Source of the DNA: Streptomyces achromogenes
GTDB taxonomy: Bacteria > Actinomycetota > Actinomycetes > Streptomycetales > Streptomycetaceae
Reading direction: 5' to 3'
Length of the DNA: 64,000 nucleotides
NCBI RefSeq assembly: GCF_030816715.1
Contig: NZ_JAUSYH010000001.1
Coordinates: 6,510,001 to 6,574,000 of the forward strand
Shown: in pieces, positions 28,732 to 59,445 of the stretch
Layout of the letters: each line of letters begins with the position of its first letter
Numbering within the stretch: the first letter of the stretch is position 1
The notes under the pieces: model-generated
Seen by the model: only the letters and a program-made list of their open reading frames with translations
Databases searched by the model: none
What the model was told of the DNA's origin: nothing
Program-made: the position numbers and the translations under genes

Positions 28732-28766
28732 CACGGGTGAACTCCCTCTGGTCCTGACGGGCACAC

Positions 28767-30444: not shown

Positions 30445-31788
30445 TCACGCCTGGCGGCGGAACACGGGCTTCACCGGCCGTCCGGCCATCCAGGGGGTGG
30501 GGTCACCGGCGTCCAGGGCCTTGCGGTACACCGCGCACGCCTGGGCCACCACGTCGACGGTGTGGTCGATGTCGGCGTCGTCGAGCGCGCTGCTCACCAC
30601 GAACGACGGGGCCAGCACCCCGCCCGCGAGGAGCCGGCGCAGGAACAGGGTGCGGTACTCCTGGGACGGCCGCCCGTGCTCGTCGAGGGTGGCGAAGACC
30701 AGGTTGCTGGCCCGGCCCCGGACGACGAGGTGGTCGCCGACGCCCATGCCGGCCGCGGCCTCGCGGACACCGGCGGCCAGCCGTTCGCCGAGGGCGTGCA
30801 GCCGGGCGGTGACGCCCTCCTCCACGTAGGTGCTGAGCACGGCCGTCGCGGCGGCCAGGGAGTGCGTCTCCGCACCGTGGGTCGTGGACAGCAGGAACAC
30901 CCGGTCGCCGGAGTGGCGCAGCCCGCCCCGTTCCATCAGGTCGCGGCGCCCGGCCAGCGCGGAGACGGCGAACCCGTTGCCCAGGGCCTTGCCGAACGTG
31001 GAAAGGTCGGGGACGACGCCGTACAGGCCCTGGGCGCCCGCCTCGGACCAGCGGAAGCCGGTGATCATCTCGTCGAAGACCAGGACGCAGCCGTGCCGGT
31101 CGGCCAGTTCGCGCAGGCCCTGGAGGTACCCGGGCGGCGGCTCGGAGTGGGTGGCGGGTTCGAGGATCAGACAGGCGACCTCGCCCCGGTGCCGGGAGAG
31201 CAGCTCCTCGGTGGCGGCCAGGTCGCCGTAGGGGAACGTCACGGTGAGTTCGTTGGTGGCGTCCGGGATGCCGGCGGACATCGGCGTGGTGCCGATGAAC
31301 CAGTCGTCGGTGGAGAAGAACGGATGGTCGGCGCAGAGTGCCACCCGCGGGCGGCCGGTGGCGGCGCGGGCGAGGCGCACCGCGGCGGTGGTGGCGTCGG
31401 AGCCGTTCTTCGCGAACTTCACCATCTCGGCGGTCGGCACGGTCGCCAGGAAGGTTTCCGCGGCCTCGACCTCCACGATGGACGGCCGGACGAAGTTGCC
31501 GCCGCGGTCGAGTTGCCGTCGCACGGCCTCGACCACCCGGGGGTGGGCGTGGCCGAGGCTGACCGACCGCAGGCCGGAGCCGTACTCGATGTACCGGTTG
31601 CCGTCGACGTCCCACACATGGGCGCCGTGACCGTGGCTGATGACCGGGGCCAGGTTCTCGGGGTACTGGTCGTCGCCCTTGGCGTAGGTGTGCGCGCCCC
31701 CGGGGACCAGGGCGTGCAGCCGCTCGTTCGCCGCCCGCGACCGGGGCAGGAGCAGCTCTGCGGTGTCTTCGGTGGCTTCGGTGTCCAC
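30445..31788 (-). CDS. Class III PLP-dependent aminotransferase (glutamate-1-semialdehyde aminomutase-like)
   Basis: 447 aa. HVWDVDGNRYIEYGSGLRSV, LVFDEMITGFRW and STFGKALGNGF (PLP lysine) are class III hallmarks closest to glutamate-1-semialdehyde 2,1-aminomutase. Here it is the last gene of the polysaccharide locus, seven bases after the 3,5-epimerase, and no haem gene is near. It therefore more likely transfers an amino group to a nucleotide sugar or a sugar substituent than makes aminolevulinate. Start ATG at 31788. The terminal KPVFRRQA tail is unusual for HemL. Confidence 0.83.
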   Translation of the reverse strand: MDTEATEDTAELLLPRSRAANERLHALVPGGAHTYAKGDDQYPENLAPVISHGHGAHVWDVDGNRYIEYGSGLRSVSLGHAHPRVVEAVRRQLDRGGNFVRPSIVEVEAAETFLATVPTAEMVKFAKNGSDATTAAVRLARAATGRPRVALCADHPFFSTDDWFIGTTPMSAGIPDATNELTVTFPYGDLAATEELLSRHRGEVACLILEPATHSEPPPGYLQGLRELADRHGCVLVFDEMITGFRWSEAGAQGLYGVVPDLSTFGKALGNGFAVSALAGRRDLMERGGLRHSGDRVFLLSTTHGAETHSLAAATAVLSTYVEEGVTARLHALGERLAAGVREAAAGMGVGDHLVVRGRASNLVFATLDEHGRPSQEYRTLFLRRLLAGGVLAPSFVVSSALDDADIDHTVDVVAQACAVYRKALDAGDPTPWMAGRPVKPVFRRQA

Positions 31789-31795
31789 GCGGACC

Positions 31796-32347
31796 TCAAC
31801 TCTCCTTGTGCTTCAGGACGTCGGCGAGGCTCGGCGCCTCCCGGTCCCGCTGGGACATCGACGTGACCGGCAGCGGCCAGGGAACGGCCAGCTCCGGGTC
31901 GTCGAAGGCGATGGTCACGTCCTCGGCCGGATCGTGCGGACGGTCGATCCGGTACGAGGTGTCGGCGGTCTCGGTCAGCGCCTGGAAGCCGTGCGCGCAC
32001 CCCGCCGGGATGTACAGGGTCGTCTGCGTCTCGCCGGACAGCTCGAAGGAGGCCACGTTGCGAAAGGTCGGCGAGTTTGTCCGCAGGTCCACGACGACGT
32101 CGAAGATCCTCCCGTACGAGCAGCGCACCAGTTTGGCCTCGCCGGCGCCGGAGCGCAGGTGCAGGCCGCGCAGCACGCCGCCGGCCGAGCGGGACAGGCT
32201 GTCCTGCACGAACGCGTGGGGGTCGAGGCCCACCGAGCGGAGCACGTCGGCGTCGAAGGTGCGGCAGAAGAAGCCGCGTTCGTCGGCGTACGGCGTCGGT
32301 TCGAACAGGTAGGCGCCGGAGATCTCCGGGACTTCGATCGCCTTCAC
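31796..32347 (-). CDS. dTDP-4-dehydrorhamnose 3,5-epimerase family protein (RmlC-like)
   Basis: 183 aa, RmlC length. FEPTPYADERGFFCRTFD, QDSLSRSAGGVLRGLH and AKLVRCSYGRIFDVVVDLR hold the conserved cupin residues including the catalytic His in RGLH, and YIPAGCAHGFQAL the second active-site loop. It epimerises a 4-keto nucleotide sugar at C3 and/or C5. No other rml genes (A, B, D) are in the locus, so its substrate probably comes from the CDP-sugar module nearby. GTG start overlaps the pyruvyltransferase stop. Confidence 0.88.
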   Translation of the reverse strand: MKAIEVPEISGAYLFEPTPYADERGFFCRTFDADVLRSVGLDPHAFVQDSLSRSAGGVLRGLHLRSGAGEAKLVRCSYGRIFDVVVDLRTNSPTFRNVASFELSGETQTTLYIPAGCAHGFQALTETADTSYRIDRPHDPAEDVTIAFDDPELAVPWPLPVTSMSQRDREAPSLADVLKHKES

Positions 32348-33636
32348 GGGGTCTCCTGCCGGGTGTGGCCCTGGGCGCGGGCGTGGTCTTGGTTGCGGGC
32401 CGGGGCCGGGGCCGGGGCCGGGGCGCGGGTGCGGCCGGTCGCCGGGAACAGCGCCGCGGTCAGGGCCGTGAAATGGCGGTCGAGTCGCTGGGCGGCGGCC
32501 CGGTTCCGTTCGGTGAGGGTCTCCCGCAGTTCCGCCGATCGTTTCTCCAGCGACCGGAACTGCTCCAGCAGCCGGTCGGCGTCGACCTCGCGCGCCGGAT
32601 GGCAGTACGCGCCGAGGCCCATCTCCGCCATGAGCGCGTCGCTCTTCGCCGCATAGCTGAGCGAGAGCGTCGGGGTGCCGGACCGCAGTGCGCAGACCAG
32701 GTTGTGGTAGCGGGTCGCCACCACGGCGTCGGCGGCCGCCGTCTCCTTCATCAGGTCGGCGAGCGAGGCCGCCTCGGCGGCGGTGACCAGCGGCGAGTCC
32801 ACCGCGTCGAGGATCGCGGCGACCACCGGCGCGTCGCACGCGTCGCCGGTGAGCAGCCGGACCGGCCTGCCGTCCTCGACCAGCGCGCGGACGAAGCGGG
32901 TCGTCCCCTCGAGGTAGCGCCGGTGGATCTCCTCGCCGCGGTCGCGGTCGTCGTCGCCGCCGTGGAAGTCCATGACGCCGACGCAGACGCGGCCCGGCGC
33001 CACCGGGGGCTGGCCCGCCGGCGGCGCCGGCAGGGCGAACGCGAGGTCCGGGTGGACCTCGTCGCGCGCGGTGTCCACGCCCATCGCCCGCATCGCGTCG
33101 CGGGACGGGACGTCCCGGTACGACCGGTAGGCGGCCAGCCGCGCCGACCAGCGCACCAGGGCACGGGTCGACGGGTTGGCGATCGGGGCGGCGCCGACGC
33201 CGACCAGCGCGACCCGGCTGCCGGACAGCCGGCCGCTCGCGCACAGCAGGAACAGCGCGTACGGGAAGCCCCACGGCCGCAGCGGCAGCGTGGCCTCCAG
33301 GACGCCCATGCCCGGCACGATCACCACGTCGTGCCGGCGCACCCAGGCGGCGGTGCGGAAGGCGTCGACGAGTTTGCCGAGCCCCTTGCCGGCGATCGCG
33401 CCCGCCCGCGAAGCCGTCCGGTACTCCCCGCGGTACCAGTGCAGCCGCGTCGCGGGGATGCCGTACCGGGCCGTGACGACCTCGGGTCCACCGCACAGCG
33501 CGTCCACGACCGCCTCCGGGTGCTCCGCGCGGAGGTATCCGAGCACCGCCTCGAGCGACCCGTCGTTGCCGAGGTTGCCGGAGCCGAGCAGCCCGAACAC
33601 CCCGACGCGCACGGGGGATCCGCCCGCGGACGTCAT
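32344..33636 (-). CDS. Polysaccharide pyruvyl transferase family protein
   Basis: 430 aa. VFGLLGSGNLGNDGSLEAVL at residues about 13-32 is the start motif of the CsaB/WcaK-type pyruvyltransferases, with the glycosyltransferase-B-like fold; VVATRYHNLVCALRSGTP, SLSYAAKSDALM and the acidic GDACDAP loop follow. Family members place pyruvate ketals on sugars using phosphoenolpyruvate, giving acidic polymer. The C-terminal 35 residues are a Pro/Ala-rich tail. ATGA overlap with the upstream glycosyltransferase. Confidence 0.86.
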   Translation of the reverse strand: MTSAGGSPVRVGVFGLLGSGNLGNDGSLEAVLGYLRAEHPEAVVDALCGGPEVVTARYGIPATRLHWYRGEYRTASRAGAIAGKGLGKLVDAFRTAAWVRRHDVVIVPGMGVLEATLPLRPWGFPYALFLLCASGRLSGSRVALVGVGAAPIANPSTRALVRWSARLAAYRSYRDVPSRDAMRAMGVDTARDEVHPDLAFALPAPPAGQPPVAPGRVCVGVMDFHGGDDDRDRGEEIHRRYLEGTTRFVRALVEDGRPVRLLTGDACDAPVVAAILDAVDSPLVTAAEAASLADLMKETAAADAVVATRYHNLVCALRSGTPTLSLSYAAKSDALMAEMGLGAYCHPAREVDADRLLEQFRSLEKRSAELRETLTERNRAAAQRLDRHFTALTAALFPATGRTRAPAPAPAPARNQDHARAQGHTRQETP

Positions 33637-34580
33637 GCCCGCCTCCCCTCGCGGCCGGCGACGAGGGCGTCGACGGAGACGGTGAGCCGGGCCGGATCGA
33701 CCGGGGCGCGGTCCTCGACCCGCTCGCCGGCGCCCGGCCGGACCCGGCTGGTCATCCACGCGGCCAGGTGGCCGAAACACGCGCGCCGGTCCGCCGCGGA
33801 CAGCGGCGCCCGCCGGATCGCCGAGGCGAAACCCCAGACGTACTCGGCGAGCAGCCGGGGCGTCGGGTGCAGGAGGCCCGCCCGGCGCGGATCGAGGTTG
33901 ACGCACCGGGAGCGTTTGGAGGGGTTCGCCCGCTCGGCGCGGGTGGGATGGTCGCGGCGGAAGTACAGCAGCTCCGGCACCTGGTGGAAGGGCCCGTGCA
34001 GGGTGATCTCGGCGACGAACGTGCGGTCCGCGTGGTGGTAGCTGTCGTGCGGCTTCACCCGGCGCAGCATGTCGGCCCGCATCACCCCGTAGAAGTCGTC
34101 GCCACCGGGCTCGAAGAGCAGGCTGCGGAAGCGCTCCGGCGCGTGCGGCGAGTCGGTGGCGAGCCCGTACTCGTAGGGGACCTTCACCTGGCCGTCGCCG
34201 TCGATGACCGCCTGGCCGCTGTGCGCGAGGACCACGTCCGGCCGTTCGTCCAGCGCCTGGACGCAGCGCAGCAGCAGGTCCCGGGCGTACAGGTCGTCGT
34301 GGGAGGCCCACTTGAACAGCTCGCCGCGGCACTCGGTGAACACGTAATTGTGGTTGGGCGCGGCGCCGATGTTGCGGGGCAGCCGGAGGTACCGGATGCG
34401 CGAGTCCTTCGCGGCGTACCGGCGGCAGATGTCCTCGGTCCCGTCGGTCGAGGCGTTGTCGGAGACGACCAGTTCGAAGTCCTCGTAGGTCTGGCCGAGC
34501 AGGGCGTCGAACGACTCGGCCAGGTACTCCTCGCCGTTGTACACGGGCAGGCCGATGCTCAGCCTGGGGTGGGCGGTCAT
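33633..34580 (-). CDS. Family 2 glycosyltransferase
   Basis: 315 aa. LSIGLPVYNGEEYLAESFDA, ELVVSDNASTDGT and the metal-binding loop WASHDDLYARD (in place of DXD) define a GT-A fold family 2 enzyme. It should add one sugar to a lipid-linked repeat on the cytoplasmic face; donor and linkage cannot be told. No membrane helix. ATG start at 34580 overlaps the flippase stop and its own stop overlaps the pyruvyltransferase start. Confidence 0.9.
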   Translation of the reverse strand: MTAHPRLSIGLPVYNGEEYLAESFDALLGQTYEDFELVVSDNASTDGTEDICRRYAAKDSRIRYLRLPRNIGAAPNHNYVFTECRGELFKWASHDDLYARDLLLRCVQALDERPDVVLAHSGQAVIDGDGQVKVPYEYGLATDSPHAPERFRSLLFEPGGDDFYGVMRADMLRRVKPHDSYHHADRTFVAEITLHGPFHQVPELLYFRRDHPTRAERANPSKRSRCVNLDPRRAGLLHPTPRLLAEYVWGFASAIRRAPLSAADRRACFGHLAAWMTSRVRPGAGERVEDRAPVDPARLTVSVDALVAGREGRRA

Positions 34581-35890
34581 GAGGTCCTCACTTCGCGAAT
34601 GGTGTTCCGGTGGTGCTCGCGCGACGCGGACCGCAGCTGCAGCCACCACACGGCCGAGCTGCCGACGGTCGCGGCGGCGACGCCCCAGGCCGAGCCGACC
34701 GTGCCGGCCACGGCCGCCCCGCCGAGTCCGCCGCCGACGTAGCAGGCGGAGGCGAACAGTTGGCAGCGCAGGCTGCGCCGGGCCGCGGCGAGCGCGCGCA
34801 GTCCGGCCGCCGCGCCGGTGCCGAGGCCGGCGCCGGCGACGCCGAGGGTGGCCGGCACGATGAGCTGCGAGGCGGAGGGCCAGACGTCGCCGAGCACGAA
34901 CGCGCCGGCCCGGTCCGGCATCAGCAGCAGCGCGGCGCCCCACAGCAGCGCGGCGGCGGCCTGCCCGCCGCCCAGCAGCAGGCAGAACCTGCCCAGCCGC
35001 TGAGGGGCCCGCCGCAGGACGCGTGCCGCCTCCGCGACGGTGACCAGCGACAGTCCCATCAGCAGCGCGAGGAACGGGCCGAGCAGGAGCTCCGCGCCCC
35101 GGACCGCGCCCACCGCGCCGACGCCGACGATCGCGCCGAGCCCGTACGCCCGCAGCTGGCTCGCGCCGCTGAGGCTGACGTTCTCGACCAGGTACCGGTA
35201 GCCGAGGTCGCGCTGCTCGCGCAGCCACCCGCGCGTCCCCGTCGTCCGGGGCCGGATCCCGGACTGGAGGCAGCCGTACCCCGCGGCCACCGCGGCGGAC
35301 GCGCCCCAGGCGAGCACGAACGCGGCCACGCTGTCCACGCGCGCCGCCACCACCATCGCCGGGACGAGCGCGACGCCCCACACGAGGTCGTTGACGAACG
35401 CCTTGCGTCCGGCCCCGGCGGCGAAGAACGCGAACCGCCAGGCGTCCTGCAGCAGCAGCGCGGGCAGCACGACGCCGAGGCAGACGAACGCGGGCCCCAC
35501 GCGGCCGCCGAGGCCGAGCCCGACCAGCAGACACACCGCGCCGAGGGCGGTGCCGACGCCGAGCGCGGCGCCCGACGACCGGGCGGCCGCCGCGCGCCAG
35601 GACGCCTCCGGCACGCCGCTGAAGCGCACCACGAGCGGATCGGTGGCCAGCCCGCGGGCGACGTTCAGCACCACGCCGTAGGTCAGCCAGGCCAGGCTGA
35701 ACACGCCGAACGCGGTCAGCCCCAGCGAGCGGGCCACATAGATCCCCACCGCGAAGTTGGTCATGCTGGAGGCCGCCTGGTCGGCCAGTCCCCAGGACAG
35801 CCGGCCGACGACGGCCCGCCGGGCGGTCCGCCGGGCGTCCGTGGCCCCGTCCGCCGTCGCCTTCCCCTCCCCGGTGGTCATCGGCGTCAT
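34577..35890 (-). CDS. Polysaccharide flippase-like membrane protein (Wzx/MATE-like)
   Basis: 437 aa with about 12 hydrophobic helices, starting RLSWGLADQAASSMTNFAVG, a common opening of oligosaccharide flippases. It would move the lipid-linked repeat unit across the membrane for the Wzy-type polymerase encoded at 42146-43393. ATG at 35890 overlaps the stop of the DUF4910 gene. Similarity is by topology and N-terminal pattern rather than a strict motif. Confidence 0.8.
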   Translation of the reverse strand: MTPMTTGEGKATADGATDARRTARRAVVGRLSWGLADQAASSMTNFAVGIYVARSLGLTAFGVFSLAWLTYGVVLNVARGLATDPLVVRFSGVPEASWRAAAARSSGAALGVGTALGAVCLLVGLGLGGRVGPAFVCLGVVLPALLLQDAWRFAFFAAGAGRKAFVNDLVWGVALVPAMVVAARVDSVAAFVLAWGASAAVAAGYGCLQSGIRPRTTGTRGWLREQRDLGYRYLVENVSLSGASQLRAYGLGAIVGVGAVGAVRGAELLLGPFLALLMGLSLVTVAEAARVLRRAPQRLGRFCLLLGGGQAAAALLWGAALLLMPDRAGAFVLGDVWPSASQLIVPATLGVAGAGLGTGAAAGLRALAAARRSLRCQLFASACYVGGGLGGAAVAGTVGSAWGVAAATVGSSAVWWLQLRSASREHHRNTIREVRTS

Positions 35891-37161
35891 GCCTTGATCA
35901 GCTCGGCGTCGTGCAGGGCTCCGGCCGCCGCGGCGACGGTGTCGAACGGCAGCCCGGAGCGCTCGGCCACGTCCAGCAGACTGTGCTCGCCGTCGGAGAG
36001 GCTGAGCACCCAGAGCATGGCCAGCTGGGCCTCTTTCGCGTCGCTGCGGCCGCCGAGCGAGTCGTACAGCCCGCGCCGGCCGAGCTGCGGCTCGCCGTAG
36101 GGGCTGAGGTTGACGTACCGCCGGTTGCGGTCCAGGACGCCGAACGCCTCGAGGCAGACGTCGAGCGTGTCCTGCATCGCCTCCGGGGAGACGAAGCCGG
36201 GGTCGTCCGCCGAGGTGTGGTACTCGGGGTAGCCCGCGTACGGGGTCCGGCTGAGCGATCCCACGCCGAGGTCGAACCCCGGTGAGCAGTACTGCCGCTC
36301 GTCGTAGCCGTAGGGAGTGAACTCCTTGATGTCGTGCGGGCGTCCGGAGGCCGTCAGCACATGGCGCAGCACCCGGTCGATCTCCGCGTCGCCGCGCCTG
36401 CTCTGCTTGTACGTCAGGTGCCCCCGGTCGCCGGCGCAGGCCAGCACCAGCCCGTGCTTGACCCGTTCCACCCGTTCCGCGTTGCGGGCCAGCCAGGTGA
36501 TCGCCCCGATGGTGCCGGGCGCGAAGATGAACCGGTAGGTGTAGTACGGCGTCCGCTCCGCCAGCGACCGGGCCAGGTACGTCGCCACCGCGATGCCGGC
36601 CAGGTTGTCGTTGGCCAGCGACGGGTGGCAGACGTGGCAGGAGACGATGACCTCGTCGGCGACCTGCCCGGGGACCACGTGCTCGGCGTAGGTGAGATGG
36701 CCGTCGGCGAGCGTGGAGTCGACGCGCACCTCGTAATCGCCGTCCGGCAGCGCGTCCAGGGTCTCCTGGGCCAGGCAGAACCCCCACTCCGGCTTGTAGT
36801 AGCTGGTGCGGTAGGGCACCCAGGACGGGTGGTCCGGCAGGGTGTGCAGGTGTCCGCGCAGCTCGTCCAGCGGCATGGTCGCCGACACCGGCACGCTGTA
36901 GCCGAGCACGTGCAGGCTGGACGCGGCGAAGTCGACGACCCGCTTCCCGGCGGCGTCGGCGATGTACGCGTCCCGGATGTTCCACTCCTGCGGCACCGTC
37001 CAGTCCAGCACCCGGGTCCCCGTCGGCACCTCGTGCACCCGCAACGGGACGTACTCGCCGACGATGTCCAGGGTGGCGCGCACCCCGTCGCCGGTGATGC
37101 TCCGGCACAGCGGGTACAGCCGCTCCACCAGCGCGTGCATCTCGTCGCCTGCCACGGTCAT
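35887..37161 (-). CDS. DUF4910 domain protein (aminopeptidase-like fold with winged helix)
   Basis: 424 aa. The central part has SCHVCHPSLANDNLAGIAVA, where His and Asp correspond to M28-type metal ligands, then PGTIGAITWLARN, CAGDRGHLTYKQSR and PEYHTSADDPGF with another candidate His ligand. The N-terminal DUF2172 jelly-roll insert (residues about 60-150) and a C-terminal winged helix (about 360-424) are typical of the family. Such genes sit in many surface-sugar loci beside an epimerase, PIG-L protein and cytidylyltransferase, but no reaction is established. An amide hydrolase or ligase-like role on a sugar substituent is possible. Confidence 0.8.
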   Translation of the reverse strand: MTVAGDEMHALVERLYPLCRSITGDGVRATLDIVGEYVPLRVHEVPTGTRVLDWTVPQEWNIRDAYIADAAGKRVVDFAASSLHVLGYSVPVSATMPLDELRGHLHTLPDHPSWVPYRTSYYKPEWGFCLAQETLDALPDGDYEVRVDSTLADGHLTYAEHVVPGQVADEVIVSCHVCHPSLANDNLAGIAVATYLARSLAERTPYYTYRFIFAPGTIGAITWLARNAERVERVKHGLVLACAGDRGHLTYKQSRRGDAEIDRVLRHVLTASGRPHDIKEFTPYGYDERQYCSPGFDLGVGSLSRTPYAGYPEYHTSADDPGFVSPEAMQDTLDVCLEAFGVLDRNRRYVNLSPYGEPQLGRRGLYDSLGGRSDAKEAQLAMLWVLSLSDGEHSLLDVAERSGLPFDTVAAAAGALHDAELIKA

Positions 37162-38183
37162 CGGCGCCACCGCAGGGTGTCGTCGACGGCGCCGGCGTCG
37201 GACGCCGCGCGCAGCACGGCGAGCCGGGTGAAGCGCTGCTCGAAGGCCTCCCGGGTCAGCCCGTGCGCGCGGTAGGCGTCGGCGAGTTCGAGCGCGCCCC
37301 GCTTCACCGACCACTCGCAGTCGAAGCCGGGGATCGCAGTGCGGAACCGGGAGAAGTCCACCCGGTACGACCGCGGATCGGCGCCGTTCTCCCCGGTGAT
37401 GACCACCTCGGCGCCGGACACCGCCTCGGCGACCTGCCCGGCGATCTCGGCGACCGTGACGTTGTTGGACTCGCTGCCGATGTTGAACGCCCGGTCGTGC
37501 ACCGCCTCGCGCGGCGCGGCCAGCGCGGCCGCGAAGGCGCGGGCGATGTCGGCGGCGTGCACCAGCGGCCGCCAGGGCGTGCCGTCGGAGAGCACGAGCA
37601 CCTCGCCGGACAGGAGCGCGTGACCCACCAGGTTGTTCAGCACGATGTCGGCGCGCAGCCGCGGCGAGTAGCCGAAAGCGGTGGCGTTGCGCATGTACAC
37701 CGGGCTGAAGTCGCCGTCGGCGAGCGCGTGCAGGTCGTCCTCCACCCGCACCTTGGACTCCGCGTACGGGGTCACCGGGCGCAGCGGGGCGTCCTCGGCG
37801 ACCAGGTCGTCGCCGCCGGCGGCGCCGTACACCGAGCAGGTCGACGCGTACAGGAAGCGCCCCACCCCGGCCTCGCGGGCCAGCCGGGCCAGCCGCACGG
37901 AGGCGTGGTGGTTGATGTCGTAGGTGAGGTCCGGCGCCAGCGATCCCAGCGGGTCGTTGGACAGCGCGGCCAGGTGGATCACGGCGTCCACCCCGGCCAC
38001 GTGCTCGGCCGTGACGTCGCGCAGGTCCACCCGGTGCCCCGGCGGGTCGGCGGGCATCGGACCGAGGACGCAGTCGGCGAACAGCCCGGCGTCCAGACCG
38101 ACGACCTCGTGGCCGGCGGCGGCGAGCACGGGGGCCATCACGGTTCCCAGATAGCCCTGGTGTCCGGTCAGCAGTACGCGCAT
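37158..38183 (-). CDS. NAD-dependent nucleotide-sugar epimerase/dehydratase (extended SDR)
   Basis: 341 aa. MRVLLTGHQGYLGTVMAPVL holds the GxxGxxG cofactor motif; the catalytic Ser lies in STCSVYGA and the YxxxK pair in PYAESKVRVEDD. RPLVHAADIARAFAAAL is the usual substrate-domain helix. It belongs to the broad family containing CDP-sugar epimerases and 4-ketosugar reductases. It is not a clear 4,6-dehydratase, since the DE pair after Thr in the active site is not obvious. ATGA overlaps on both sides tie it to the DUF4910 and PIG-L genes. Confidence 0.85.
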   Translation of the reverse strand: MRVLLTGHQGYLGTVMAPVLAAAGHEVVGLDAGLFADCVLGPMPADPPGHRVDLRDVTAEHVAGVDAVIHLAALSNDPLGSLAPDLTYDINHHASVRLARLAREAGVGRFLYASTCSVYGAAGGDDLVAEDAPLRPVTPYAESKVRVEDDLHALADGDFSPVYMRNATAFGYSPRLRADIVLNNLVGHALLSGEVLVLSDGTPWRPLVHAADIARAFAAALAAPREAVHDRAFNIGSESNNVTVAEIAGQVAEAVSGAEVVITGENGADPRSYRVDFSRFRTAIPGFDCEWSVKRGALELADAYRAHGLTREAFEQRFTRLAVLRAASDAGAVDDTLRWRR

Positions 38184-38186
38184 GGT

Positions 38187-38834
38187 TCATTCCCCCAGGT
38201 CGAGAGTGAGTTTGGTGACGGCGAACGCCTCGGCGTAGCGCGCGTGGCATTCGATGCCGCGGATCCGGGCCAGCCCGAGGAAGGCCTCCCGGTCGTACCA
38301 GGGCCGGTGCCGCTGCGAGGGGTAGTGCTCCTGCAACAGCCGCACCTTCTCCTCGGCGACCTCCGCGGACAGCGGCTGGTACCCGGACGGACGGCCGAGA
38401 TCGCCGTCCCACTTGACGATCTCGTAGCCGAGCACGAGGTGGTCGCGGAACGCGGTGCGCACCAGTTTCGCCAGCCCTCGGTGGTCCTGGTGCGCGTCGT
38501 CGGTGCGCGGCGCGAGGACGAGATCCGGTTCGGTCTGCGCACGCAGCTCCTCCACCGCGTCCTTCGCCTCACCCCAGTGCGACGGCAGTCGGCCGTCCGG
38601 CAGCTTGAGCACGGTCAGCCGCAGGTCGGCACCCGGGCAGAAGGCCGCGAGCGCGGCCCGCTCCTCCTGCTCGCGCTCACCGCCGCCGCCGGAGAGCACC
38701 AGCGCGTCGACGCGGATGCCCGGCCGCGCGAGGCACAGCGTCAGCAGGGTGCCGCCGGCGCCGATGGCGATGTCGTCGCAGTGCGCGCCCACCGCGACGA
38801 CCCGGTCCAGGCGCCCCGCGCCGAGCCGGATCAC
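38187..38834 (-). CDS. PIG-L/LmbE family deacetylase
   Basis: 215 aa from a GTG at 38834 that overlaps the upstream stop (GTGA). VVAVGAHCDDIAIGAGGTLL carries the zinc motif HxDD, and RTDDAHQDHRGLAKL the second metal/catalytic histidines (HxDH-like). The family removes N-acetyl groups from amino sugars such as GlcNAc-inositol or teicoplanin GlcNAc. Placed between the cytidylyltransferase and an epimerase, it likely deacetylates a nucleotide amino sugar or glycan. Confidence 0.88.
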   Translation of the reverse strand: MIRLGAGRLDRVVAVGAHCDDIAIGAGGTLLTLCLARPGIRVDALVLSGGGGEREQEERAALAAFCPGADLRLTVLKLPDGRLPSHWGEAKDAVEELRAQTEPDLVLAPRTDDAHQDHRGLAKLVRTAFRDHLVLGYEIVKWDGDLGRPSGYQPLSAEVAEEKVRLLQEHYPSQRHRPWYDREAFLGLARIRGIECHARYAEAFAVTKLTLDLGE

Positions 38835-42143: not shown

Positions 42144-42145
42144 GC

Positions 42146-43393: not shown

Positions 43394-43394
43394 C

Positions 43395-44918: not shown

Positions 44919-44929
44919 GCGCCCTCCCC

Positions 44930-49116: not shown

Positions 49117-49166
49117 CCGAAGTCCTCTTGTCTCTGCGCCGTCGTCAGTGGTCAAGTCGTCAGTGG

Positions 49167-51092: not shown

Positions 51093-51095
51093 GTG

Positions 51096-52649
51096 TTACT
51101 GAGCCTCCTGGTCGCTGTCCGGCACCCGTGCCGCCCACATCGGCTGCCGCTCCGTCCGCCGCGGGACCTCCCCCACTGCCTGGACGGCGTGGGAGGTACC
51201 CCCACCCATCTGCCGGGCCGGCCGCTCGTTGCGGCCGCGCAGCGCGGTGTGCGGCCCGTCCCACAGCGTGCCGTCGGTCCGGTCACGCGGGTCGGGGTCG
51301 ATCAGCACCACACCGATGACCGCGATGTGCTGGTCCGCGAGCTGGCGTGCCACGGTGTGCAGCCATGCGGCGCTGCCGTGCCCGGCACGTACGACGAGGA
51401 CGGCCCGGGTGCCGAGGTACTGCAGGTCGGTCCACGCCGTGCCGGGCGCCACCGAGCCGACGCCGATCCTGCGCCCCTGCGGCGACTCGGCCGCGGCGCG
51501 CTCGCCGGTGACCACGGCCGGGTCCCCGGGCTTCGGACGGCGATCGGCGAGCTGCCGGCCCGGCAGACCGTCGACGACCACCACCGGCCCCTCCGCCGCC
51601 AGTGCCCCGGCGAGGTCCAGGGCGAGCACGCTCGTGTTGCGCGCGCAGCCCAGTTCCAGCAGCGACACCGGTTCCGCGGAGCCGCGCACGGCGCGGGCCA
51701 GGGACAGGGCGAGCCGTTCGCGTGCCGCCCGGACCCGGCGGCGCCGCCATCGGCCGCCCGGCCGGTGGGGCAGCTCCGCGACGACCGAGGCGCCGAGGTT
51801 GGCGGCGATCTCCCGGCGCAGCACGGGACGGTCCGCCACCACCGCGCCGACCGCCGCCAGCGCGAGCCCGAGGAACAGGCCGAGGAACAGCCCGATCGCG
51901 GCGTCCCTGGCAGCGGTCCCGGGCAGGGAGTGCCGCACCGCGTACGGGGCGTCCACGATCTGCGTGCCGGCGACGAGCCGGGGCGTGCCGATGCTCGCCT
52001 CCCCGGCGCGCTGGCTGAAATCGGTGATCTGCGAGGTGAGTTCGGCCCGGCGGGCGTACAGGGACTCCAGGTCCGCCGACGACCCCGGCCCGCTCGCCTC
52101 GGTGCCGTCCCCGATCGTCTTGTTGACCTGGGCCAGTTGGGTCTTCAGCTGGTCACGCTGGTCGATCAGGGCCTTGGCCTCGGCTTTCGAGGCCTCCTGG
52201 ATCCGCCTCACATGGTCGGCGACGAACGCGTCCGCCAACGCCTTGGCGCGGGCCACCGCCTCCGCGTCGCTGTCACCGGTCACGGTGATCTGCAGCACGT
52301 TGTTGGTCACGCCGGTACCGCTGTAGTCCTGCATGAAGTCCTCGGCTTTCTCCGGGGACCGCAGGGACTTCAGCGCCTGCTCGGCGATCCGGGTGGTCTG
52401 CAGCAGCGCGACGTCGGTACGGATGAGCGTTCCGGGGTCGTTCGGCTGGTCCTCCTCGTGCGCGACCAGCACCTTGGTCACCGCGGTCGGCGGCGCCGGC
52501 AGCAGGAACGCCACCGCCGCGCCGACGAGCAGCCCCAGCAGCGCGAGGGAACCCCACAGGCGGCGCCGTCGGCGCACCGCCGCCACCAGGGTCTGCAGGT
52601 CCAGCAGCGGAGCGGCGGTCGACGACGCCGCGGTCGTACTCGTCGTCAC
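51096..52649 (-). CDS. Polysaccharide co-polymerase (Wzz/chain-length type) with degenerate kinase-like tail
   Basis: 517 aa from a GTG at 52649 with AGGAG upstream. A first helix (LWGSLALLGLLVGAAVAFLL) and a second (DAAIGLFLGLFLGLALAAVG, about residue 270) bracket a coiled-coil extracytoplasmic domain (ADHVRRIQEASKAEAKALID). The cytoplasmic tail resembles a BY-kinase: LELGCARNTSVLALDLAGAL is where Walker A should be but lacks the Gly-Lys-Ser/Thr, and VVVVDG replaces LLVDAD. It is thus probably a non-kinase regulator of chain length. GTGA overlap with a second protein of the same type. Confidence 0.82.
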   Translation of the reverse strand: MTTSTTAASSTAAPLLDLQTLVAAVRRRRRLWGSLALLGLLVGAAVAFLLPAPPTAVTKVLVAHEEDQPNDPGTLIRTDVALLQTTRIAEQALKSLRSPEKAEDFMQDYSGTGVTNNVLQITVTGDSDAEAVARAKALADAFVADHVRRIQEASKAEAKALIDQRDQLKTQLAQVNKTIGDGTEASGPGSSADLESLYARRAELTSQITDFSQRAGEASIGTPRLVAGTQIVDAPYAVRHSLPGTAARDAAIGLFLGLFLGLALAAVGAVVADRPVLRREIAANLGASVVAELPHRPGGRWRRRRVRAARERLALSLARAVRGSAEPVSLLELGCARNTSVLALDLAGALAAEGPVVVVDGLPGRQLADRRPKPGDPAVVTGERAAAESPQGRRIGVGSVAPGTAWTDLQYLGTRAVLVVRAGHGSAAWLHTVARQLADQHIAVIGVVLIDPDPRDRTDGTLWDGPHTALRGRNERPARQMGGGTSHAVQAVGEVPRRTERQPMWAARVPDSDQEAQ

Positions 52650-54034
52650 CCTGTGACTCCTGTCGCGTCGTCCCGTTCGCCGTCGAAGCTCGTGGGCGTG
52701 GGGGCGGGCGCGGGTACGGCGGTGCGCCGAGGGCGGTCGGCCGACCGCGTCGCACGGACCGGACCGGCGAGGACGACGCCGACGACCGCGTGCCCCGCGT
52801 CCGCACACGCCTCGGAGACGCCGGCGAGCTCCCCCGCGGTCCAACTGCCGGCGCTGAGCACGACCAGCGCGCCCGACTCGCGCTCGCGGTCCGGCACCAT
52901 CGGCCGGGACACCGGGACCGCCACCGCGCGCAGCAGCGGATCGCTCCCGGCCACGTCGACGAGCTGCCCCGCCGCCCGGCGGGCGATCTCGTCGCCCTCG
53001 GGGAAGACGACCAGGAGCCGCTGCGGGGACGGCAGCCGGTCCCGCAGCCGCGAGCACACCCGCCGGTAGCGGATCTGCCTGCTGGCCTCGTCGCCGGACA
53101 GCTGCGGGGCCGGGATGTTCCACCGGACGTCGAGGCCCAGCAGCCGGCGGATCCACGCCCGCGGACCACGGCCCGCCGACCGGTGCGTGGGCCGTTCGAC
53201 GGGTACGTCGACGGTTCCCAGCAGCGTCGAGCCCAGCGCCGCGGCGATCTCCGGTTCGCCGCGCAGCCGGCGGCTCATCCGCGCGGCGGCGAGATGGCCG
53301 ATCACCGCGAACAGCAGGAACAGCAGCGCTCCGCCGGCGACGAGCTGCGTCCTCGTCGGCGGCGCCTCGCCGGTCGGCCGGGCCGCCGACCCCATGACGA
53401 CCATGTTCTTCGCCTCGTCGTCGACCGGGTCGGCCTGCTTGATGGTGCTGATGGCCTCGCGCAGCGCGGTGCGCAGCTTCTCCAGCTCGGTGCGGGTCTG
53501 CACGCTCTCGACGGTCTCCCCGGGATCGGTCGCGTCGGCCAGCTTGCTGATGCGGCGGCTGGTGTCCTCCACCGACTGCTGGAGCGCGGCGAGCTCCTCC
53601 GCCGCCCCGGGGTCGGCGGTTTCGCTCGCGATCCGGGTGGCGTAGGAGACGAACTCCTTGGCCACCTGGTCGGAGAGGCGCTGCGCACGCTCCGGGGTCT
53701 CGGCGGTGCCGGAGATCTTGATGATGTTCCCGTCCGTGGCCTTGGCGCCGACCTGATCCCGCAGGTCGCTGCCGCTCACCCCGCTCCAGCCGAGCGTGGC
53801 GGCCGCGCGGTCGACCACCACCGAACTGGTCGCCACCTCCGTCTGCGTCAGCAGCTCACGCTCCTCCCACGTCCCCGGCAGCAGCACCGACGCCGAGGTC
53901 GTGTAGCGCGGCGGGAACAGCAGGGACGCGCCGTACCCGACGAGCGCACCCAGCAGGGCGAAGACGGTGAGCAGCCGCCAACGCCGGCGGACAATCCGCC
54001 CGATGGTGACCAGGCGTATCGTGTCATCGCTCAA
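52646..54034 (-). CDS. Second polysaccharide co-polymerase with degenerate kinase-like tail
   Basis: 462 aa from a TTG at 54034 (GAAGG eight bases upstream); it overlaps the upstream glycosyltransferase by 11 bases. Helix one is LLTVFALLGALVGYGASLLF, and helix two VAGGALLFLLFAVIGHLAAA near residue 245; LLPGTWEERELLTQTEVATS is the typical start of Wzz-type extracytoplasmic domains. The tail after residue 290 has RLLVVFPEGDEIARRAAGQL in place of Walker A, without a P-loop Lys. Two such proteins in tandem probably form a mixed chain-length regulator. No separate tyrosine kinase or phosphatase is in the locus. Confidence 0.8.
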   Translation of the reverse strand: MSDDTIRLVTIGRIVRRRWRLLTVFALLGALVGYGASLLFPPRYTTSASVLLPGTWEERELLTQTEVATSSVVVDRAAATLGWSGVSGSDLRDQVGAKATDGNIIKISGTAETPERAQRLSDQVAKEFVSYATRIASETADPGAAEELAALQQSVEDTSRRISKLADATDPGETVESVQTRTELEKLRTALREAISTIKQADPVDDEAKNMVVMGSAARPTGEAPPTRTQLVAGGALLFLLFAVIGHLAAARMSRRLRGEPEIAAALGSTLLGTVDVPVERPTHRSAGRGPRAWIRRLLGLDVRWNIPAPQLSGDEASRQIRYRRVCSRLRDRLPSPQRLLVVFPEGDEIARRAAGQLVDVAGSDPLLRAVAVPVSRPMVPDRERESGALVVLSAGSWTAGELAGVSEACADAGHAVVGVVLAGPVRATRSADRPRRTAVPAPAPTPTSFDGERDDATGVTG

Positions 54035-55295
54035 TGGTGCGGCCTTCCCCTGCCGGGTCAGGGTCGCGCGCCGTGACCGGGGCCCGGTCACCGCAGGCAG
54101 CCTCGTAGGCGGCGAGCAGCGATCGCTGGGAGTTCCGCCAGGACAGCGGCCCGCCGATCCGCTCCTGGCCGATCTTGCCCATCAGGGCCCGCTTCTCCGG
54201 GTCGTCCAGCAGCAGGGCGATCAGCCGGGCGAACTCGGCCTCGTCGTCGGCGGCCGCGTACACGGCGGCGTCACCGGCGGAGACCCGCGCCTCGCGCAGG
54301 TCGAACGAGACGACCGGCCGGCCCATCACCATGTACTCGAGGACCTTGTTCATGGTCGACACGTCGTTGAGCGGATTGTTCGGGTCGGGGGAGAGGCACA
54401 CGTCCGCGGTGGACAGGTAGCGCACCAGGTCGGCGTCCGGAATACGCCCGGTGAACTGCACCTGCTCCGAGAGCCCGAGCCGCCCGGACAGCTCCACCAT
54501 CGCGTCGAACGTGTCGCCGCCGCCCACGAACACCGCGTGCCAGTCGCTCCGCCCGACCTCGTCGCGCAGCTTCGCCAGGGCCCGCAAGGCGTAGTCGACG
54601 CCGTCCTGCGGACCCATGACGCCGAGATAGCACAGCAGATGAGGCTTGCCGCGCTTCAACTCCGGCTCGGGCGGCACGGGGTGGAACCGCTCGACGTCGG
54701 GCGCGCTGCGCACCACGAAGACGTCCGCCGGCCGCTTGCCGCCGCGGCGCACCGCGACGTCCCGGTAGCTCTCGTTCGTGGCGAGCACGACGTCGGCGGC
54801 CCGGTAGGTCCGCCGTTCCAGCGCGCACACGGCGCGGTAGAGCAGGTCCTTGCCGCGGCCGAACCGGGAGAGGTACAGCTCGGGCACCAGGTCGTGCTGG
54901 TCGAAGACGAACCGCGCGCCGCGCCGCTTCAGCCACAGGGCGGGCAGGAACAGCAGGTCGGGCGGGTTGCAGGCGTGGACCACGTCGACCGGGCCGACCT
55001 TGCGGGCCAGCCGGACCGTGTGCCACAACGCCGAGCCGTACTCCCGCAGATAGCCGGACGGCCCCCCGGTGGCCGCGCGCAACGGGTAGCGGTGGATCCG
55101 CACCCCCTCGATCACTGCCTCCGGCTCGGTGTCCCGCTTCGTGCCCTGCGGACAGATGACGTGCACCGTCCAGCCCGCGTCGCGCAGCGTCGTGCACTCC
55201 TGCCACACCCGCCGGTCGAACGGCACCGACAGGTTCTCCACCAGGATCAGCGCGCGCCGGCCCGGCCGGTCGCCGCTTCCCGCATCACCAGGCAA
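54024..55295 (-). CDS. Family 4 glycosyltransferase
   Basis: 423 aa from a TTG at 55295 overlapping the dehydrogenase stop by 11 bases. The acceptor half opens ALILVENLSVPFDRRVWQEC, with VVHACNPPDLLFLPALWLKR; the donor half has LCYLGVMGPQDGVDYALRAL and LSPDPNNPLNDVSTMNKVLE with the EYMVMGRPVVSFD end, a variant of the GT4 E-x7-E pattern. Probably adds the second sugar after the priming transferase. The TTG start is uncertain. Confidence 0.87.
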   Translation of the reverse strand: MPGDAGSGDRPGRRALILVENLSVPFDRRVWQECTTLRDAGWTVHVICPQGTKRDTEPEAVIEGVRIHRYPLRAATGGPSGYLREYGSALWHTVRLARKVGPVDVVHACNPPDLLFLPALWLKRRGARFVFDQHDLVPELYLSRFGRGKDLLYRAVCALERRTYRAADVVLATNESYRDVAVRRGGKRPADVFVVRSAPDVERFHPVPPEPELKRGKPHLLCYLGVMGPQDGVDYALRALAKLRDEVGRSDWHAVFVGGGDTFDAMVELSGRLGLSEQVQFTGRIPDADLVRYLSTADVCLSPDPNNPLNDVSTMNKVLEYMVMGRPVVSFDLREARVSAGDAAVYAAADDEAEFARLIALLLDDPEKRALMGKIGQERIGGPLSWRNSQRSLLAAYEAACGDRAPVTARDPDPAGEGRTIER

Positions 55296-56601
55296 GGCCC
55301 ACGTACCCCTGTTCGGCCCGGCGCGCGTCGGCGTCGGGAAGGTGGACGAGATCGATGATCACCGGGGCGTCGCCGTGCGGCAGCGCCGACAGCACGGCCG
55401 GATCCTTCGTCCCGACCAGGCACACCTCGGCGTGCTCGAGCACCTCCTCGACGGAATCGGCGAGCAGTTGCGCGAGATGCGGCAGCCGGGTCTCGATGTA
55501 CTCGCGGTTCGCGCCGAGCAGCCGGGACAGGCTCACGTTCGCGTCGTAGATCTTCAGGTCGTACCCCTTGCCGAAAAGCCGCTCGGCCAGCTCGACGAGC
55601 GGGCTCTCGCGGAGGTCGTCGGTGCCGGGCTTGAAGGACAGCCCGAACAGGCCCGCCCGGCGTTTCCCGGTGCGCTCCACCAACTCCACCGCGCGCTGCA
55701 GATGGTCGGAGTTGGACGGCAGCACATGGGACAGGATCGGCACCGAGACGTCCGCCCGCTGCGCCGCGTGCACCAGGCTGCGCAGGTCCTTGGGCAGGCA
55801 GGAGCCGCCGAAGGCGAAGCCGGGCCGCAGATAGGCGGGGCTGATGTTCAGCTTGCGGTCGGCCAGGAACACGTCCATCACCTGGTGCGAGTCCACCCCG
55901 AGGGCCTGGCACACCGCGCCCAGCTCGTTCGCGAAGCCGATCTTGAGACCGTGGAACGCGTTGTCCGCGTACTTGATCGCCTCGGCCGTCGGGACCGGCA
56001 CCCGGAACACCTCGCCGGGCAGGTCCTGGTACAGCGCCGCCACCGCGTCGCCGCTCGCCGCGTCGAGCTCGCCGATGACGGTCTTGGGCGGGTCGAAGAA
56101 GTCCCGCACGCTTGTGCCCTCGCGCAGGAACTCCGGGTTGACCGCGACCCCGACGTCCACCCCGGCCGTGCCGCCGACGTACTTCTCCAGGATCGGCAGC
56201 AGCAGGTTCAGGCAGGTGCCCGGCAGCATGGTGCTGCGGAACACCACGGTGTGCCGCCCGCCCCGCTCGGCCAGTGCCGCGCCGATCTCCTCGGTGACCC
56301 GCTCCAAGTACGTCGTGCACAGGCTGCCGTTGGGCTCCGACGGCGTGCCCACGCAGACCAGCGAGATCTCACTGTCCATGATCGCCTCGCGGACGTCGCC
56401 GGTGGCGCGCAGCGCCCCGGTCCGCACGACGTCGGCGATGAGCTCGCCGATCCGCTCCTCGACCACCGGGGCCTTGCCGTCGTTGACCAGGTCGACCTTC
56501 ACCTGGTTGACGTCGACCCCGATGACCTCGTGCCCCATGCTGGCAAGGCACGCGGCCGACACGCAGCCCACGTAGCCGAGCCCGAAAACGCTGACCTTCA
56601 T
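55285..56601 (-). CDS. Nucleotide-sugar 6-dehydrogenase (GDP-mannose dehydrogenase/AlgD-like)
   Basis: 438 aa. The N-terminal MKVSVFGLGYVGCVSAACLA is the NAD site; VCVGTPSEPNGSL, RSTMLPGT and VNPEFLREGT are conserved; the catalytic Cys lies in GFAFGGSCLPKDLRSL. The pattern is nearer to GDP-mannose dehydrogenase (AlgD) than to UDP-glucose dehydrogenase, notably VAVNPEFLREGTSV and IKYADNAFHGLKIGFANELG. It makes a uronic acid donor with two NAD. ATG at 56601 after GGAGGAA. The leader shares a repeat element with the sugar transferase gene. Specificity should be tested. Confidence 0.87.
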   Translation of the reverse strand: MKVSVFGLGYVGCVSAACLASMGHEVIGVDVNQVKVDLVNDGKAPVVEERIGELIADVVRTGALRATGDVREAIMDSEISLVCVGTPSEPNGSLCTTYLERVTEEIGAALAERGGRHTVVFRSTMLPGTCLNLLLPILEKYVGGTAGVDVGVAVNPEFLREGTSVRDFFDPPKTVIGELDAASGDAVAALYQDLPGEVFRVPVPTAEAIKYADNAFHGLKIGFANELGAVCQALGVDSHQVMDVFLADRKLNISPAYLRPGFAFGGSCLPKDLRSLVHAAQRADVSVPILSHVLPSNSDHLQRAVELVERTGKRRAGLFGLSFKPGTDDLRESPLVELAERLFGKGYDLKIYDANVSLSRLLGANREYIETRLPHLAQLLADSVEEVLEHAEVCLVGTKDPAVLSALPHGDAPVIIDLVHLPDADARRAEQGYVGLAW

Positions 56602-56607
56602 GACCCG

Positions 56608-56631
56608 TTCCTCCCCCCGGGCAGGCCCTCG
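56608..56631 (-). promoter_or_regulatory. Leader element shared with the sugar transferase gene
   Basis: On the plus strand TTCCTCCCCCCGGG plus AGGCCC is the same element as at 58229-58250; it contains the Shine-Dalgarno (GGAGGAA on the minus strand) of the dehydrogenase gene and a partly matching anti-Shine-Dalgarno (GCCTGCCC). Confidence 0.6.
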
Positions 56632-56701
56632 CGGCCTGCGTTCCGCACGCCGGCGGGGTCGTCGGACCCCAGCCCCCCGCGCATCAGTTGCCCCCCGCAC
56701 A

Positions 56702-58225
56702 TCAGTAGGCCCCCTGGCCGTAGAGCACCGCACGCATCGTCTTCCACAAGATCACCGTGTCCAGGGCGAGCGACCAGTCCTCCACGTACCGCAGGTCCAG
56801 CCGCACCGCCTCCTCCCACGACAGGTCACTGCGTCCGCTGATCTGCCACAGGCCGGTGAGGCCGGGCTTGACCAGCAGCCGCCGCCGGATGTCCGGGCCG
56901 TACGCGGCGGACTCCTCCGGCAGCGGAGGCCGCGGACCGACGAGCGACATCGATCCGGTGAGCACGTTGAACAGCTGCGGGAGTTCGTCGATCGAGTACC
57001 GGCGCAGCACTGCTCCCACCCGGGTCACCCGCGGATCCCGGCGGAGCTTGAACAGCGGGCCGGCGCCCTCGTTGAGGTCGGCCAGCTGGGCCCGCGCCCG
57101 GTCGGCGTCGGCCACCATGGTGCGGAATTTGAGAATGGTGAACTCGCCGCCGTCCTTGCCGACTCTGCGCTGGCGGTAGAACACCCCGCCCCGGCTGTCC
57201 ATCAGCACGAGCAGCCCGACGACCGCCATCAGCGGCGCGAACAGGACCAGCAGGACCGCCGCGCCCATCCGGTCGACGACGCCCTTGACCGCCCGGCGCC
57301 CCCCGGTGAAGGTCGGCATGCTGACCCGCAGCAGAGGTATCCCGAGCACCGCGTCGACGTGCAGCCGCGGGCCGGCCACCTCCATCAGCACGGGGGCCAC
57401 GACCATCTCGGCGTCGGTGCCTTCGAGGTTCCAGGCCAGCCGCTGGAGCCGCTCCGGCGACCAGTGCGGGTCCGGCGTGACCGCGACGACACGGTAGCCG
57501 TCGCCGTGAACGTGCTTGGCGACGTCGGCCAGCTGGCCGACCACCGGGACTCCGTCCAGCAGATCACCGTCGAGCCCGGGACCGTCCGTCGTGCACACCG
57601 CGTCCACCCGCCAGCCCAGATGCGGGAACTTACGGGTGCGGGTGATCAGGTCGCTCACCGTGGCGGGGCTGCCGGCGGCGAGCACCGGTCGCAGGCACCG
57701 GCCTTCCTTGCGCTGCCTGTGCAGCGAGAGGCGCAGCAGATAGCGCGCGGTCATGGTGACGAGCGCGATCGCGGGGATCGCGACGAAGATCCAGAGCTTG
57801 ATGTTGCGCGAGGTGAGCGCGATCCCGCCGAGCGCCAGGACGACGGTCGCGGCGAACAGCGAGCGTCCGAGCCGGCGGAACTCCTCGGCGCCCTGGCCGA
57901 GCACGGCCGGCGCCCACGACCGGCTGACCGCGAGCGCCCCCAGCACCAGCAGCTCGGTGCCGAACGCGAGAATGCCCCATTTCTCATGCCAGTTGGCAGC
58001 GTCCCGGGCTCCGAAGAAGTTGCCGATCCCCGCCACCACGAAGGCGGTGGCCGCCGTGTCGCTCATGATCACGGTACGTCGGTACCGCTGCTCCCAGTCG
58101 ATCGCGGGCCGGCTGATCGTGTCGTTCTCCAGACGCCCGCGCGCCGACGGAAACGGGCTGACTAGCTCCCCTTGCCGCACAGAACCCCCCAGGTTCCCCA
58201 GTGGTTCGACGTGTTCGCCTAACAC
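56702..58225 (-). CDS. Polyprenyl-phosphate sugar-1-phosphate transferase (priming enzyme)
   Basis: 507 aa from a GTG at 58225, five bases after GGGAGG. Four or five membrane helices in the first 200 residues are followed by a CoA-binding-like region and a C-terminal catalytic domain with VFYRQRRVGKDGGEFTILKF, FKLRRDPRVTRVGAVLRRYS, DELPQLFNVLTGSMSLVGPR and ISGRSDLSWEEAVRLD. These are the hallmarks of WbaP/CpsE-type enzymes that load the first sugar-phosphate on undecaprenyl phosphate. Codon two is TTA (58220-58222), a rare leucine codon read by the bldA tRNA, so synthesis should be limited to developmental stages. First gene of the locus. Confidence 0.9.
   Translation of the reverse strand: MLGEHVEPLGNLGGSVRQGELVSPFPSARGRLENDTISRPAIDWEQRYRRTVIMSDTAATAFVVAGIGNFFGARDAANWHEKWGILAFGTELLVLGALAVSRSWAPAVLGQGAEEFRRLGRSLFAATVVLALGGIALTSRNIKLWIFVAIPAIALVTMTARYLLRLSLHRQRKEGRCLRPVLAAGSPATVSDLITRTRKFPHLGWRVDAVCTTDGPGLDGDLLDGVPVVGQLADVAKHVHGDGYRVVAVTPDPHWSPERLQRLAWNLEGTDAEMVVAPVLMEVAGPRLHVDAVLGIPLLRVSMPTFTGGRRAVKGVVDRMGAAVLLVLFAPLMAVVGLLVLMDSRGGVFYRQRRVGKDGGEFTILKFRTMVADADRARAQLADLNEGAGPLFKLRRDPRVTRVGAVLRRYSIDELPQLFNVLTGSMSLVGPRPPLPEESAAYGPDIRRRLLVKPGLTGLWQISGRSDLSWEEAVRLDLRYVEDWSLALDTVILWKTMRAVLYGQGAY
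58220..58222 (-). promoter_or_regulatory. TTA codon at position 2 of the priming transferase gene
   Basis: Minus-strand GTG TTA GGC GAA CAC: the second codon is TTA. In Streptomyces this codon depends on bldA tRNA-Leu and marks developmentally controlled genes. I found no other in-frame TTA among the genes I called. Confidence 0.8.
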
Positions 58226-59230: not shown

Positions 59231-59445
59231 CACCGACGGGGCTCCGGCCGTGACCCGCTCGGCATCATCGGGGCCGTCAGCCCGCAGGCCGGCCTGACGA
59301 CGCCCCGGTCCCCGTGGGCGGGGTGAGTGGGCGCCGTCCGGGACCGGTGCGGTGGCGGTCCGTGTCGCTGTTGGGCCGAACGGGTGACTTGGCGTAAGAA
59401 TTGACTGGTGCACGCATTGAAGGCGAGTCAGTTCTGGGGGTGCCG

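Follow-up and report, generated by a model that had tools for sequence, protein, structure and literature searches.

A polysaccharide locus of Streptomyces achromogenes, probably orthologous to SCO0381-SCO0401 and to the Ebosin (ste) genes

In this work, we analyzed a 64,000-nucleotide stretch of the Streptomyces achromogenes genome (9.17 Mb in one contig, NZ_JAUSYH010000001.1; positions 6,510,001 to 6,574,000), hereafter the window, in which positions are counted from the first letter. An uninterrupted block of 21 genes on the minus strand, covering about 28 kb (30445-58225), is very probably this strain's orthologue of the Ebosin cluster (ste5-ste25) and of S. coelicolor SCO0381-SCO0401, that is, a Wzx/Wzy-dependent exopolysaccharide locus. 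The cluster is already known and not new. A previous sequence-only reading had counted nineteen minus-strand genes, with short gaps except near 49.1 and 56.6 kb, and had recognised no described Streptomyces exopolysaccharide with this gene set. The single-strand arrangement and both gaps were borne out, but the genes number 21 and their set is that of the ste locus and SCO0381-SCO0401. Near-identical loci with an assigned polymer, named in that reading as grounds for giving it up, do exist, the ste locus being collinear at 21 of 21 genes. The gaps between genes are mostly of -4 to +11 bp, the exceptions being 50 bp at 49117-49166 and 100 bp at 56602-56701; a further one of 43 bp at 55242-55284 vanishes when an earlier start is taken.

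The annotation and order of SCO0381-SCO0401 agree with the window at 21 of 21 positions, as judged by comparing the published product list (PMC3610822) with the families of the window genes, annotations and not sequences being compared. These S. coelicolor genes, named the 'deoxysugar synthase/glycosyltransferase cluster', may, according to PMC2000904, form a single operon that depends on bldA; in PMC4398421 they are said to resemble the ste genes of Streptomyces sp. 139, which are required for the exopolysaccharide Ebosin, and are called orthologous to them. The functions published for ste5 (priming), ste7, ste15 and ste22 (glycosyltransferases), ste8 (Wzz) and ste17 (glucose-1-phosphate cytidylyltransferase) correspond to window positions 1, 3/11/18, 4 and 13, respectively. 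In addition, the 12 sp. 139 primers printed for ste2, ste5, ste8 and ste17 (PMC8902715) were matched against genome loci. In one genome, G026, 11 of the 12 matched exactly and the twelfth with one mismatch, while the ste2, ste5 and ste8 primers found an exact match in none of the 80 control loci. The ste17 forward primer, which is short and sits in a conserved stretch, was exact in 25 of these 80 and also in the window, at 39276-39292 within the cytidylyltransferase gene. Because 11 of the 12 published primers match exactly, G026 would be Streptomyces sp. 139. In this genome all 21 genes follow the order of the window, at 58-92% protein identity, and the PAP2 phosphatase gene described below is present as well.

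Gene families were assigned by Pfam, NCBIfam and PDB profile searches together with checks of catalytic motifs, and they confirmed the presence of the components listed in the sequence-only reading: a priming transferase, an AlgD-like dehydrogenase, two co-polymerases, heparinase-like and beta-helix proteins, and the cytidylyltransferase, C-methyl, PIG-L and pyruvyl genes. On the substrates that these families suggest, the priming polyprenyl-phosphate hexose-1-phosphate transferase (position 1, ste5/SCO0381, 56702-58225; PF02397, E 6.9e-65; TIGR03025 above its cut-off) would place hexose-1-phosphate on undecaprenyl phosphate. Three glycosyltransferases (GT) would then lengthen the chain into a repeating unit of about four sugars, namely two of family GT4, each with PF13692 and PF00534, at the positions of ste7/SCO0383 (54024-55241) and ste15/SCO0391 (40869-42143), and one of family GT2 at the position of ste22/SCO0398 (33633-34580; PF00535, E 8.1e-28). 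The repeat would be flipped by a probable Wzx flippase (SCO0397, 34577-35881) and polymerised by Wzy (SCO0390, 42146-43393; about 8 or more transmembrane helices) under two Wzz co-polymerases. The first of these (ste8/SCO0384, 52646-54091; PF02706, E 3.2e-6) carries the ste8R primer site with 2 mismatches at 53308; the second (SCO0385, 51096-52649; PF02706, E 2.6e-10) has no Walker A motif (P-loop), and its C-terminal part resembles a tyrosine-kinase domain minus the P-loop. A PAP2 phosphatase encoded on the plus strand and facing the block (29611-30369; PF01569) would recycle the carrier. This neighbour was kept in every locus reaching that end; it accompanies the block and belongs in the definition of the locus.

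Further enzymes would modify the polymer. The AsnB-type glutamine amidotransferase (SCO0386, 49167-51092; PF00733 and PF13537, with Cys2 and the motif SGGLDSS; TIGR03108 at 443.7 bits, below its cut-off) would amidate a carboxyl, and the polysaccharide pyruvyltransferase (SCO0399, 32344-33636; PF04230, E 1.5e-24) would add a ketal. The chain might be trimmed or processed by a heparinase II/III/alginate lyase family protein (SCO0388, 44930-46906; PF07940, E 2.4e-48), whose motifs NNH, EYHG and HAHAD are conserved at 98-100% in 98 loci, and by a beta-helix lipoprotein (SCO0389, 43395-44918; PF13229) with a lipobox-like Cys23 that is 99% conserved. Next to the heparinase-like gene lies that of a bi-domain oxidoreductase joining a zinc alcohol dehydrogenase and a GFO/IDH/MocA domain (SCO0387, 46903-49116; PF00107, PF01408); our literature search on this pair of genes found no paper. 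As to the uronate, the product of 55285-56601 (SCO0382), with the motif FGGSCLPKD, matched the GDP-mannose dehydrogenase 1mfz at E 2.6e-141 and its nearest UDP-glucose dehydrogenase in the PDB at 1.4e-62, by which a UDP-glucose dehydrogenase was ruled out. An AlgD-type enzyme of this sort would supply GDP-mannuronate and thus argues for mannuronate in the polymer. The locus shares an AlgD-type GDP-mannose dehydrogenase with the alginate system, but Pfam scans of the block detected no alginate synthase Alg8/Alg44, the block being probably of the Wzx/Wzy type instead.

Seven genes of the block form a module that probably leads, judging from their families, to a cytidine diphosphate (CDP)-linked, C-methyl-branched sugar by an uncharacterised route. 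They encode a sugar 3-C-methyltransferase (SCO0392, 39637-40872; PDB 4rv9, E 9.1e-89), the glucose-1-phosphate cytidylyltransferase carrying the ste17F primer site (ste17/SCO0393, 38831-39640; PDB 1tzf, E 2.2e-41), a PIG-L deacetylase (SCO0394, 38187-38834; PF02585, E 2.3e-15; motif AHCDD), a nucleotide-sugar oxidoreductase of the short-chain dehydrogenase/reductase (SDR) family (SCO0395, 37158-38183; PF01370), a DUF4910/HTH_47 protein (SCO0396, 35887-37161; PF16254, E 3e-114; PDB 3k9t, E 3.1e-147), an RmlC-like 3,5-epimerase (SCO0400, 31796-32347; PF00908, E 1.1e-55; TIGR01221 just above its cut-off) and a GSAM-like class III aminotransferase (SCO0401, 30445-31788; NF004856 at 720 bits, cut-off 486). 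Matches to DUF4910 on plasmids led to loci of Alphaproteobacteria, rhizobia among them (Agrobacterium pusense, Shinella, Mesorhizobium, Neorhizobium, Qingshengfaniella, Ochrobactrum and S. fredii), and to one in a record that bears the name Roseateles. In these alphaproteobacterial and Roseateles-labelled loci the SDR, DUF4910, RmlC-like, C-methyltransferase, cytidylyltransferase and PIG-L genes occur together, with the GSAM-like gene in most. In Nonomuraea, the C-methyltransferase, cytidylyltransferase, PIG-L, SDR and DUF4910 genes keep the Streptomyces order at 73-79%; the N. gerenzanensis locus places these five, an AlgD-type gene and a GT4 gene (76-77%) amid other polymer genes, gave no match to Wzy and looks like a recombined relative. 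DUF4910 was also found without the module in Halorussus, Maritalea and A. salinitolerans. In the archaeon Halorussus its neighbours are an aminotransferase gene and a gene of the N-acetylneuraminate synthase family, which gives the DUF4910 family a further sugar context. DUF4910 had previously been tied to sugar-modifying neighbourhoods, where the CA_C2195-like proteins likewise have SDR, nucleotidyltransferase and sugar methyltransferase genes as neighbours (PMC4000134); what is defined here, in Streptomycetaceae and Alphaproteobacteria, is a CDP set of seven genes that includes PIG-L, RmlC-like and GSAM-like members.

The CDP-glucose 4,6-dehydratase RfbG (TIGR02622) would be expected in the canonical CDP-6-deoxyhexose route, which we disfavour, since no match above the cut-off was obtained in 27 genomes or records, the genome of the window included (for plasmids, the plasmid records and not the host genomes were searched), while a control genome did give a match. 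In 24 of 24 SDRs examined, that of the window included, the motif reads S-S/T-C-x and lacks the dehydratase Asp; 4,6-dehydratases carry an acidic residue at that position. The nearest solved structure in the PDB search is 6vo6, which we take to be Cj1427, a C4-dehydrogenase acting without dehydration. These three observations favour C4 oxidation, and the module would then proceed from oxidation of a CDP-hexose at C4, the 6-OH being kept, to 3-C-methylation, RmlC-type epimerisation and amination or reduction. The C4-dehydrogenase activity of Cj1427 has been described (PMC10680097, in which the PDB code is not given), and the module resembles the Campylobacter heptose modification by Cj1427 and a C3/C5 epimerase in that C4 oxidation without dehydration is followed by an RmlC-like epimerase. 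It differs in probably using CDP instead of GDP, in its additional C-methyltransferase, PIG-L, DUF4910 protein and aminotransferase, and in that its activity is predicted from genes. Altogether, we tentatively propose an uncharacterised path to a CDP-linked, C-methyl-branched and possibly amino sugar keeping its 6-OH, in which a non-dehydrating C4 oxidation takes the place of RfbG and DUF4910 acts on a sugar nucleotide instead of hydrolysing peptides; as a whole, this is possible but doubtful. An ordinary CDP- or dTDP-6-deoxy sugar, made with a 4,6-dehydratase such as RmlB from elsewhere in the genome, is a serious, if itself doubtful, competitor. The genome holds dehydratase-like SDRs scoring under the CDP-specific cut-off, and the 3-C-methyltransferases of known structure use 6-deoxy sugars in antibiotic pathways; however, the module has a cytidylyltransferase and not a thymidylyltransferase, RfbG was over the threshold in 0 of the 27 genomes or records, and the module recurs across phyla without it. 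If the proposed path is true, Ebosin-type polymers would contain this sugar as a component that has been overlooked.

The gene order was collinear in all of the approximately 110 loci checked, and about 37% of Streptomyces have the locus, as do four sister genera. The bi-domain oxidoreductase was found at E <= 1e-100 in 118 of 296 genomes of the genus (about 110 of them at 85-98% identity) and Wzy in 26 of 121 genomes of the family, representing 5 of 17 genera. Both the order and PAP2 were kept in the 20/20 Streptomyces and 10/10 sister-genus genomes fetched, although the fetched stretch gave no match to the priming transferase in 2 of those 10. Wzy retrieved 80 further loci, almost all from Streptomyces, whose covered parts keep the order. 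Because this order recurs across Streptomyces and sister genera, the block is not a chance assembly; a capsule (serotype) locus with a variable centre was ruled out as well, as the gene content stayed the same throughout the loci examined, even for Wzy and Wzx. The block order is also found on the 578-kb linear plasmid of Streptomyces sp. KN37, where a class III lanthipeptide (SapB/AmfS-like) cluster, an aerial-growth surface system, adjoins it (L131, 28365-35325). In Streptomyces sp. NEAU-Y11 the locus occurs on two contigs (L115 and L116) with Wzy at 83% in each, by duplication or mixed assembly, and one sister-genus Wzy gene (G714:C103:137920-139149) is read with a single in-frame TGA, which may mark a pseudogene or an error of sequencing. 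A second bi-domain oxidoreductase, 42-43% identical, occurs in a few Streptomyces genomes (G140, G217, G286, G168, G100, G176 and G239) and probably belongs to another exopolysaccharide locus. A term search of a paper on an Actinoplanes exopolysaccharide showed no genes in common with the block. When the distances of the cluster were compared with those of gyrB, located by a motif anchor, the matrices were only moderately correlated (Mantel r 0.55, a value reached in 0 of 2000 permutations), the trees had 7 of 27 splits in common, and distant genera were closer to each other in the cluster than in gyrB. With this one marker, the comparison suggests some horizontal spread. A single unchanged locus of Wzx/Wzy type extends across much of the Streptomycetaceae, although such loci usually vary.

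In S. coelicolor, all 21 genes are up in sporulating mycelium (PMC3610822), several are up in a dasR mutant (PMC4398421), and cluster genes are reduced in a bldA mutant (PMC2000904), in an adpA mutant of S. lividans and, along with the chaplin and rodlin genes, in a mutant of the extracytoplasmic function sigma factor SCO4117. A TTA codon is present in the first or second gene in 28 of 49 loci, the density being 1.30 and 0.88 per 1000 codons in these genes and 0-0.12 in the next four. In the window it is codon 2 of the first gene, with the start taken at 58225, whereas in S. coelicolor TTA has been reported in SCO0383 and SCO0399 (PMC2000904). Since the positions differ between loci, several origins seem likely, although the loci are related to one another. 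A UUA (bldA) checkpoint at the head of the operon would be a reasonable reading; developmental timing may be expected in this strain too. The invariant gene set, unlike that of typical capsules, the expression of the S. coelicolor cluster with chaplin and rodlin genes and its rise in sporulating mycelium could also speak for a glycopolymer bound to the wall or surface of aerial hyphae or spores instead of a free exopolysaccharide. We consider this unlikely, given that Pfam scans detected no anchoring ligase in the block and that Ebosin was obtained from the culture supernatant.

Several points weigh against the equivalence with the Ebosin cluster. The identity of G026 with sp. 139 is itself deduced from primer matches. 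The Ebosin cluster has ste1-ste4 (dasRABC) beside ste5, and these are not next to the block in the window, where an open reading frame without a Pfam match, a SepF-like gene and others lie upstream of 58225; their absence affects regulation and not the polymer genes. The SepF-like gene (59440-59835) stands on the plus strand, opposite to the block and 1.2 kb upstream of it. A counterpart with 86% identity and likewise opposite orientation lies about 9 kb upstream in the G026 locus, separated from it by the ste2 (dasA-like) region, and none was found in the other 20 loci fetched. On the other side of the block, at 25914-28734 (minus strand), lie three genes of an ATP-binding cassette importer of molybdate type by family (an ATPase with a TOBE domain, a permease and an SBP_bac_11 binding protein). 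As for the Wzy/Wzx pair named in the sequence-only reading, Wzy holds (PF04932, E 2.3e-6, below the gathering score) but Wzx is weakly supported: the window candidate is a membrane protein with several helices but had no Pfam match, a PDB profile search returned nothing relevant, Polysacc_synt_3 appeared in 3 of 18 orthologues (best E 0.042), and the AlphaFold model was too poor for use (mean pLDDT 43). Among the features that define a Wzx/Wzy locus, the priming transferase and Wzz are clear. Moreover, Ste7 has been reported as a fucosyltransferase, yet the block is without GDP-fucose genes, and the sugars published for Ebosin and its derivatives (glucose, mannose, arabinose, galactose, fucose, xylose, rhamnose and galacturonic acid) include neither mannuronate nor a C-methyl sugar, which partly conflicts with the gene content. 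Notwithstanding, an undescribed exopolysaccharide cluster with a new gene set is very improbable, as the ste locus and SCO0381-SCO0401 are collinear with the block throughout, which outweighs the facts that the product composition was never resolved to gene level and that names like 'deoxysugar synthase cluster' conceal the nature of the locus.

The uronic acid of Ebosin was measured by carbazole. This reaction does not distinguish uronic acids, and alditol-acetate gas chromatography reveals neither uronates nor an unexpected branched amino sugar. Mannuronate, an amide of it, pyruvate and a C-methyl amino sugar would hardly have come to light in the published analyses. The pyruvylated, amidated, uronate-containing polymer with a branched sugar foreseen in the sequence-only reading is thus upheld in its chemistry, by the families and their intact catalytic motifs; the composition itself, that of this strain included, is a prediction from genes at odds in part with the bulk composition published for Ebosin. 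Taken together, these results would link three subjects mostly handled separately in the literature: the DUF4910 sugar neighbourhoods, Ebosin, and the SCO0381-SCO0401 operon with its developmental regulation. The components predicted from the genes (mannuronate or its amide, a pyruvate ketal and a C-methyl amino sugar) mean that the Ebosin-type polymer merits re-analysis, mannuronate versus the published galacturonate being the most useful correction that the sequence may offer.

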